Source of the DNA: Bdellovibrionales bacterium GWB1_55_8 | GTDB lineage: Bacteria > Bdellovibrionota > UBA1018 | DNA length: 37,600 nt | Direction of reading: 5' to 3' | Assembly (NCBI GenBank): GCA_001769835.1 | Contig: MEPR01000044.1 | Location: 40,143-77,742 of the forward strand | Shown here: positions 28,268-30,412 of the stretch, one piece after another | Layout: every line of letters starts with the position of its first letter | Position numbering within the stretch: the first letter of the stretch is position 1 | Program-made: the position numbers and the translations under genes | Notes under the pieces: model-generated | What the model saw: only the letters and a program-made list of their open reading frames with translations | Databases searched by the model: none | Told to the model about the DNA's origin: nothing

Positions 28268-29584
28268 TCAGAACACGAAGGTTGCGCCAGCAGCTATCGA
28301 ATAGAAAGCCGCCTTCGCAACCGTCCCGCCGACCATCTGCTTATCGGCGTCATACGCGGAATATCCGTACGGATTACTATAGCCATACGGGTTAGTGTAT
28401 CCGTAGTAGGGGGTGCTTCCGTACATTGCATTGTTATTGATGCTCGAGTTCTCGCGGGCGGAAAGGACGTTATAATACTTGAACGTCGCACCCACTGAGA
28501 TCGACTTGTTGACGCGAATGTCAAATCCCGTCGACAAGAAACCCAGGAACTGCGTCAGATTATAATCCTGTCCATAATACAGCCGACTCTGAGCATCGAG
28601 ACGATCCAGAATGGCCTGATCATAGTTGATGAAGCTCTTGGCATAGGCGCCGCCCCCTCCGAGAAAGGGACGAATTCTGGCATCCGGCCCGAGGAAATGA
28701 AGCTTCAGACCGATGTCGCCCACGTTCTGCTTCATCGCAACAGTTTCAAAGTTGCCAAGATAGCCGGAGTTGACCATCGAATTCTGGTAGACGTTGTTCA
28801 GCGCGACACCGAATTCACTGAACGTGTAACCCAGCTCAAAACTCAGGTTCGGCGATACCGCAACACCTAAGTCCACGCCCACCGAAAAGCGCGGGTTCAT
28901 CTCATAATAGGATTCTGAAGCCATGTTCGCCACACCACCGCGCGACCGCACATAGACCAGAGAAAGATCCGACGGTTCCTCAACCGCGACCACGCTCGAA
29001 CCCGTCAAAGCAGGAACAGACTGCTCAGGTGTGATCGAGGCAACAACTGTCTGCTGAGCCACAGCGCCAACCGGCTCTTCTTTCAACACAGGCATAGCAA
29101 CAGGGACCGCGAGAGCCGGGGTACTCCCGAAGAGTTCCTGAGTGCGCCTATTTTCATCTCTTAGACGAAGCTCTTCGAGCCTTTCCTGAAGAATGTCCTC
29201 GTTTTTCAATTCAGCGCGGGTCCGTTCACGACGCATTAATTCGGTTTTCGTGAACGACTGGGGTTCTTCAGCAACTTGGGCCGCCTGCATGGGCATGCTC
29301 TGAATGATCGGGAGCGCCTGTGCAACCGGAGCCTCGATGACCTGCGTTTGAGGAACCAGGGTCTGTGGTACTGGATCAGCTTGAACACGCTCAACCACGC
29401 CCAATGTCTGACGATTCAATTCACGATCAGCAACTCGCTGCGCGCCTTGATCGGCGGCCGGAGCTTGTGCCTGAGCCTCACTTTCATAAACCAATTCACC
29501 GCGTGCCTGAGGCAAGAGCGCTATGGAAGCCATAATTCCGGCTCCCAGCGCCGCACCCAGGGTTCTTGTTCTCATGATTTTCAT
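28268..29584 (-). CDS. Outer-membrane beta-barrel protein with N-terminal coiled-coil/Gln-rich region
   Basis: A 438-residue protein starting at ATG 29584 (AGGAG nine bases upstream; the longer frame to 29707 has no signal peptide). The signal peptide is MKIMRTRTLGAALGAGIMAS..., with cleavage likely near QARG around residue 30. A Gln/Ala/Val-rich segment and a charged coiled coil (ELMRRERTRAELKNED, then LQERLEELRLRDENRR) follow. The second half is a barrel: FSVGVDLGVAVSPNLSFELGYTF, IGLKLHF, FLGFLSTGFDIRV, ISVGATFKYYNV, ending AAGATFVF. A long Tyr/Gly loop contains three NPYGY-like repeats. The N-terminal part could reach peptidoglycan. The promoter is not obvious; a 600-bp structured upstream region precedes it. 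Confidence 0.78.
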   Translation of the reverse strand: MKIMRTRTLGAALGAGIMASIALLPQARGELVYESEAQAQAPAADQGAQRVADRELNRQTLGVVERVQADPVPQTLVPQTQVIEAPVAQALPIIQSMPMQAAQVAEEPQSFTKTELMRRERTRAELKNEDILQERLEELRLRDENRRTQELFGSTPALAVPVAMPVLKEEPVGAVAQQTVVASITPEQSVPALTGSSVVAVEEPSDLSLVYVRSRGGVANMASESYYEMNPRFSVGVDLGVAVSPNLSFELGYTFSEFGVALNNVYQNSMVNSGYLGNFETVAMKQNVGDIGLKLHFLGPDARIRPFLGGGGAYAKSFINYDQAILDRLDAQSRLYYGQDYNLTQFLGFLSTGFDIRVNKSISVGATFKYYNVLSARENSSINNNAMYGSTPYYGYTNPYGYSNPYGYSAYDADKQMVGGTVAKAAFYSIAAGATFVF

Positions 29585-29838
29585 TGCCTTTACTCCTTTG
29601 GTTACATTCCGCGACACCCCCTCTTTGGGAGGGACTATCTGCCGCATAACTGATCTGCCGCGTGGCGTCATAGCAATAGCCGTGCCCCGCGTTACAAAAG
29701 GATTCAAACCTCCAATTCCGCGAATTCATGCCTTTTTTTAAAAATGAGCAGTCCCAAATCTCTCGAGTCGATGACGGATCTGCGAAGCCAATATGGCCCC
29801 AAATCAATGGCCCTTCGGCGGGCACGGAATCGCCTCGC

Positions 29839-29971: not shown

Positions 29972-30120
29972 ATTATTGATTCCAACTGAAACTGAAACGA
30001 AACTGTCACTGGGCTGACACAGGTGACTAATAGTTAGACACTCTTGGAACTGCATCTGCTCGATTTCACATGGACATCATGAAAACGCATTGCGGCATCA
30101 CTATTGCTCTATATCCAGGT

Positions 30121-30194
30121 AACAAACGGATTGGCTAGCAGCTAGCCCCCCCTAGCTCCCCCTTTATCCCCCTCAGTTAGCCAATCCGTTTGTT
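30121..30194. repeat. Large perfect inverted repeat (17-bp arms) with phased C5/G5 tracts in the loop
   Basis: AACAAACGGATTGGCTA (30121-30137) is exactly repeated in inverse orientation at 30178-30194. The 40-bp loop contains C tracts at 30146-30152 (seven), 30158-30162 and 30168-30172; the last five of the first tract and the other two start exactly 10 bp apart. A fourth C5 lies just outside, at 30195-30199. The minus strand therefore carries four G runs (G-quadruplex potential). An alternative small hairpin GGCTA/TAGCC (30133-30137 with 30143-30147) competes with the long stem. It begins 11 bp downstream of the Flp-like gene stop. Confidence 0.8.
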
Positions 30195-30205
30195 CCCCCT
30201 AAAGA

Positions 30206-30412
30206 TCAGCGTCTCAGTGGAAAATGGTGAAGGTTTCCAAAAAAACCGCGCTCCATTTTTTCGACCAAACTGCTCGTCATACGCTCGAGCACAGGTTTGA
30301 TGAATTCCCGAATCACCATAAGCGCGAGAGTCACGGCAAGCGCAACCATGAGAATATATTCGGTCGTCGCCTGTCCAGATTCGTCCGCCCAGATTCTCCG
30401 GGATACTGTCAT
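30206..30412 (-). CDS. Flp-type (type IVb) prepilin-like small protein
   Basis: A 68-residue protein: a short basic leader (MTVSRRIWADESG), then QATTEYILMVALAVTLALMV, a hydrophobic helix beginning at the class III prepilin cleavage motif G-QATT-EY (Gly13, with Glu18 and Tyr19 at +5 and +6), and an amphipathic C-terminal helix. This fits Flp/TadE-like pilins processed by a TadV-type peptidase and assembled by a Tad system in the envelope. Its ATG overlaps the TGA of purB (ATGA), with AAGGA upstream, so it is co-translated with purB. No tad genes are nearby. A membrane protein with a chance GxxxxEY match is the alternative. Confidence 0.7.
   Translation of the reverse strand: MTVSRRIWADESGQATTEYILMVALAVTLALMVIREFIKPVLERMTSSLVEKMERGFFGNLHHFPLRR

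Follow-up and report, generated by a model that had tools for sequence, protein, structure and literature searches.

What does a perfect inverted repeat with cytosine tracts in its loop do at positions 30121-30194 of the window, the whole 37,600-nucleotide stretch of Bdellovibrionales bacterium GWB1_55_8 analysed here? An earlier note had seen in it a plus-strand structured RNA whose C-rich loops could pair with Shine-Dalgarno sequences, together with a possible structural switch and a potential minus-strand G-quadruplex. The reading that we favor, and hold to have a good chance of being right as a whole, is a sigma-54-activated, trans-acting RNA whose C tracts would block G-rich ribosome-binding sites. 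Its parts are of unequal strength: (i) we predict with high confidence that the locus is a genuine gene for a small RNA, conserved and preceded by a sigma-54 promoter, and we infer its transcription, (ii) the predicted RNA is probably switched on by the sigma-54 system, and (iii) it probably acts in trans on G-rich ribosome-binding sites, for which our confidence is moderate. Four features go beyond the earlier description, namely the promoter, an upstream dyad, a divergently oriented gene for an outer-membrane protein, and the occurrence across the phylum.

Structure, promoter and conservation of the predicted RNA

The two arms (30121-30137 and 30178-30194, plus strand) form a perfect 17-bp inverted repeat around a 40-nt loop, in agreement with the earlier description. 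The 5' arm reads AACAAACGGATTGGCTA, the 3' arm is its exact complement with the U-rich end GUUUGUU, and the repeat reaches 20 nt at 95%. This inverted repeat is far beyond chance; the predicted fold of the plus strand has an energy of -38 kcal/mol, compared with -12.9 +/- 2.4 for shuffled sequences (z = -10.5). An inner hairpin, AGCTAG-CCCCCC-CTAGCT (30140-30157), had been taken for a competitor of the long stem and thus for a switch; on the plus strand it is predicted to be nested at the apex of that stem. The apical hairpin is GGATTA..TAATCC instead in three relatives (G022, G009 and G014).

Two C5 tracts lie in the loop at 30158-30162 and 30168-30172, and another, retained in several of the relatives compared, directly follows the stem at 30195-30199, all as previously located. 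The first loop tract is a C7 (30146-30152), not the C5 at 30148 that had been reported, and an exact 10-bp phasing is obtained only if the last five of its seven cytosines are counted. This phasing is not conserved, as the tracts of relatives are mostly spaced 6-16 nt apart and show no preference for 10 bp. Copies in the order always have at least two C tracts in the loop, ranging from C4 to C11.

The -24/-12 signature of sigma-54 is a site of the GGCA-N8-GC type. The top sigma-54-like site within the window, CGGCATCACTATTGCTC at 30093-30109 on the plus strand, has its -24 GG at 30094-30095 and its -12 GC at 30106-30107. The stem begins approximately at the expected sigma-54 transcription start, and the predicted RNA would extend from about 12 nt past the -12 element to the C5 tract behind the stem (30119-30199, plus strand). 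Since the window copy has no long T run, the 3' end, somewhere past the stem, is uncertain. Each hairpin is directly preceded, on its C-rich strand, by the element GGCA-N8-GC (GG-N10-GC), and every copy on the plus strand begins about 12 nt past its sigma-54 promoter. The rpoN gene was found in 54 of 58 genomes of relatives.

When the region was used as a blastn query, matches were obtained in nine other genomes of the same family. We then built a covariance model, R1, comprising the promoter and the hairpin, and applied it to 55 genomes of the order with a cut-off of E <= 0.001. It has matches in 24 of them, 21 of which are strong (22 copies, G018 having a second copy at a different place) and three weak. 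The promoter is contained in R1, so that its matches are no independent evidence for the promoter; such evidence comes from a stem search downstream of purB that was blind to the promoter, recovered the same hairpin in most relatives, and again found GG-N10-GC preceding it. Most of the 22 strong copies adjoin the same purB and flp-like genes, and those of G020, G005, G031 and G019 are located away from purB. Two of the weak matches (L060 and L061) resemble differently shaped sigma-54 C-rich RNAs. In the third (L062, G049), no promoter or C tracts were recognisable in the stretch inspected; the promoter-plus-C-tract pattern described below does match its contig.

Covariation in the stem is strong. 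In an unguided MAFFT alignment, 15 of 19 stem pairs were changed on both sides and 95.8% of the cells pair, values of covariation that were reached by none of 500 shuffles. In the model-fitted alignment of 22 sequences, which leans to the structure, compensatory change is seen in all 19 pairs. The arm sequences vary among genera (for example, CTGACGGACTAGCTGGTT, ATCAGACGGGCTGGTGAG and ACAAGCGGATTAGCGGGC), and the C tracts of the loop are found on one strand only. A stem of 17-19 bp is maintained by compensatory changes, which is the mark of a structured RNA. Both checks proposed earlier, for copies in relatives and for covariation, turned out positive, the element being conserved and syntenic, and they bear out the proposal that the plus strand encodes a structured RNA, the C-rich loops of which are complementary to G-rich Shine-Dalgarno sequences and would pair with them. 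Searching Rfam 15 with the window and 26 related loci yielded nothing relevant among matches up to E = 1.

Upstream dyad and neighboring genes

A dyad of the form TGTC-TAA-N3-TTA-GACA, TGACTAATAGTTAGACA, is located at 30024-30040 on the plus strand, approximately 70 nt upstream of the promoter. The same distance (69-72 nt) is kept in at least 11 relatives, and four loci of f11, a distant family, have the dyad at -69. The TGTC-N9-GACA dyad is probably an activator site, that is, a candidate enhancer site for a sigma-54 activator. There are 23 such dyads in the GWB1_55_8 genome (G000), compared with four matches to the reversed pattern. Among 15 dyads inspected (L082-L096), ten are followed 45-150 nt downstream by a sigma-54 site pointing away from them, whereas the background for a stretch of this kind is about 0.01. 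Many genes following these combined sites encode proteins with signal-peptide-like starts. The genome-wide dyads thus form an apparent regulon of a candidate enhancer-binding protein, and the same activator appears to control genes of surface or secreted proteins, including the divergent outer-membrane protein. Because the dyads and sigma-54 sites recur, and because the divergent gene is likewise of the sigma-54 type, we infer that the RNA gene belongs to a sigma-54 regulon run by this candidate protein.

The divergent neighbor (28268-29584, minus strand) is predicted to encode an outer-membrane beta-barrel-like protein on the basis of a weak match to PF13505, below the curated cut-off. By its pattern, GGGCACGGCTATTGCTA (29671-29687, minus strand) is the sigma-54 promoter of this gene, and most of its orthologues likewise carry a sigma-54 promoter of their own. 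The gene is syntenic with the RNA in most relatives. The leader of the window gene includes AGGGGGTGT. We considered this leader as a conserved neighboring target and rejected it, as G5 is found in the window gene and two g16 genomes and is not general.

Downstream, a small Flp-pilin-like gene (30206-30412, minus strand), recognized as an open reading frame with no Pfam match, is convergent with the RNA. It overlaps purB by 4 nt and stays beside the RNA in several genomes, even at positions away from purB (G031 and G019).

Candidate targets and competing explanations

The proposed mechanism is as follows. An enhancer-binding protein at the TGTC-N9-GACA dyad would activate the sigma-54 holoenzyme, and transcription would begin at the foot of the long hairpin. 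The RNA would expose several C5-C7 tracts, either single-stranded or in the small apical loop, and these would pair with AGGGGG near a start codon and block translation.

A C5 tract ending in U is complementary to AGGGGG. In three genomes, AGGGGG-N5-8-ATG was counted 69, 73 and 57 times, compared with 28, 31 and 15 times for the reversed control, an excess of 2.4-3.8 times. The lists of open reading frames with G5 sites from two of these genomes, and from ten loci of the third, have a single orthologous group in common, a cold-shock protein. In all 30 genomes examined (L300-L329), its best orthologue carries A-GGGGG as the Shine-Dalgarno sequence, with never more or fewer than five G's, whereas the remainder of the leader is variable. 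With the orthologues of G037, G028 and G015, which also have A-GGGGG, the count becomes 33 of 33 over three families. In family f5, the usual form at the cold-shock gene is AAAGGGG; among paralogous cold-shock genes, GGAGG prevails, and a few have G5 or G6. The longest perfect complement between the RNA and the cold-shock leader is 6-9 nt, compared with 5-7 nt for the leaders of paralogues, whereas the full-length duplex energies of the RNA and the cold-shock mRNA leader did not separate from those of shuffled sequences. Genomes in which our searches did not recover such an RNA (G017, G004, G042, G023, G035 and G011) have the cold-shock AGGGGG as well, so its G5 site may have another reason. 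The cold-shock protein mRNA is the best candidate target, and we propose it as the leading one with modest confidence. The G5 sites and their complements support, and do not prove, pairing of the kind described for alphaproteobacterial anti-Shine-Dalgarno RNAs (PMC10746234).

Secreted proteins seemed conspicuously frequent among genes with G5 sites on visual inspection, but were not significantly enriched relative to other types of Shine-Dalgarno sequences. In L258 (G003), AGGGGG precedes the ATG of an open reading frame resembling AAA+ sigma-54 activators; this ATG could be an internal start.

Rho prefers C-rich RNA, and homopolymeric C suits it. The C tracts might accordingly sequester an RNA-binding protein such as Rho or a cold-shock protein, with pairing to mRNA being secondary; the variable number and length of the tracts and the shortness of the pairing are in line with such titration. 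We consider it rather unlikely, because every cold-shock orthologue examined in three families retains A-GGGGG, G5 Shine-Dalgarno sites exceed the control, and flanking U or A residues frequently lengthen the match to AGGGGGU.

A much smaller probability is given to the view that the element terminates transcription in both directions for the convergent purB-flp operon and that the C tracts are a by-product. In its favor, convergent transcripts flank the site, GUUUGUU closes the stem, and T runs follow the stem in some relatives. Against it are the sigma-54 promoter and the upstream dyad in fixed register and the C tracts retained on one strand; copies occur away from purB, forms elsewhere have a terminator of their own, and none was called at the RNA locus in the window. 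The promoter, the dyad and the one-strand tracts agree with the earlier impression that the element is more than a terminator. Even less probable is a G-quadruplex on the minus strand with an effect at the level of DNA or of the flp-like transcript. The window has four G5-G7 tracts on that strand, whereas some relatives have just two tracts of at least four C's (G021), and the promoter, the dyad, the covariation of the stem and the one-strand geometry would be left unexplained; the quadruplex was set aside as not needed to account for the element. A miniature mobile element or repeat, named in advance as an outcome that would overturn the RNA, is suggested by the inverted repeat and the second copy in G018, and can practically be dismissed, as the many dispersed copies expected of it were not found and the element is conserved, covarying, syntenic, and single in its own and nearly all other genomes.

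Known regulatory RNAs and related forms in the phylum

The trans-acting RNA proposed here can be compared with several known systems. In alphaproteobacteria, the 'cuckoo' RNAs alpha-r14 and NfeR1 have several hairpins that each expose the same single-stranded anti-Shine-Dalgarno motif, so that translation starts are blocked redundantly, and their stems diverge while the motifs stay (PMC10746234). Unpaired motifs complementary to Shine-Dalgarno sequences, on diverging stems, are common to these RNAs and the one predicted here. Their motif is CCUCCUCCC, present in three hairpins, whereas the loops here lack this motif and hold C4-C11 tracts of nothing but cytosine, for the most part within a single long hairpin. 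Activation of NfeR1 is by LsrB and its repression by NtrC (PMC10746234), and it is not started by sigma-54, in contrast to the sigma-54 promoter of the present RNA. The trans-acting Qrr RNAs of Vibrio owe their transcription to sigma-54 and to an enhancer-binding protein that occupies sites upstream (PMC10162802). The features of Qrr-like regulation that are readable from sequence, a promoter at the RNA start, an upstream dyad and rpoN in the genome, are all found here, and the likeness consists in the sigma-54 promoter and the candidate activator site upstream; the neighbors are different, and there is no match to Qrr in Rfam. To our knowledge, Qrr RNAs have no C5 tracts. The predicted RNA would work like a cross of Qrr regulation and cuckoo-RNA targeting and belongs to neither family.

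RepG of Helicobacter pylori acts on G-repeats in mRNA leaders, the length of which varies by phase variation (PMC8295292), whereas the candidate target here has exactly five G's; Rfam gave no match to RepG. Expression of CJnc230/FlmE of Campylobacter jejuni requires RpoN, and this RNA is mainly processed from the flgE mRNA (PMC11187230), in contrast to the promoter directly before the RNA here. For Bdellovibrio bacteriovorus, possibly of the same phylum, eight attack-phase sRNAs of 98-655 nt, three of them with FliA promoters, are described in the portion of the source available to us, which mentions no sigma-54 C-rich RNA of 55-80 nt among them; the comparison is one of descriptions (PMC3627812).

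The distribution in the phylum was assessed with a pattern that required a sigma-54 promoter and, behind it, two C5 tracts, and nothing more, the reversed pattern serving as the control. Of 369 genomes of the phylum, 79 contain the pattern and none contains its reverse. Matches in families f11, f10, f13, f15, f16, f18 and f20 look like short RNA genes. The f11-type plan begins with a promoter; as a rule, a C5-C9 tract is found close to the predicted start, and a stem, in many cases with GCGGCC, and a C-rich loop come next. A T run ends the plan in the loci inspected. In families other than that of the window, the general plan is thus closed by a perfect terminator. Family f5 has a pair of hairpins, each with a C-rich loop, together with a terminator. 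The forms of different families share the promoter type and the C tracts and, in some, the position of the dyad; they may be homologous or partly convergent.

Perhaps, then, these loci represent a phylum-wide, uncatalogued class of sigma-54-dependent C5-C11 RNAs joining a surface-protein regulon of an enhancer-binding protein to translational silencing of mRNAs that carry a dedicated 'G5' Shine-Dalgarno code, with the cold-shock protein as the conserved core target, an extension that we put forward tentatively. The favored model itself, if right, would provide these poorly studied bacteria with their first regulatory RNA under sigma-54 control for which a targeting rule (C5 versus G5) can be read; candidates for its regulon and for its core target would come with it, and a simple homopolymer seed would be kept while the carrier structure changes between families. 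Because the promoter, the dyad and the target sites can be read from the genome, this model can be put to a direct test in any member of the phylum that is in culture.

At the purB locus of G055 (L097), which belongs to a different family of the class, there is a hairpin with a C-rich loop and a perfect dyad, TGTCTAAAATATAGACA, behind a poor sigma-54 match. Several f11-type copies adjoin an N-acetylmuramoyl-alanine amidase-like gene; among the loci L101-L128 of family f11, the C-rich RNA is often beside this amidase-like gene and a gene for a coiled-coil protein (SQIEAEEATADAEAAKAEA).
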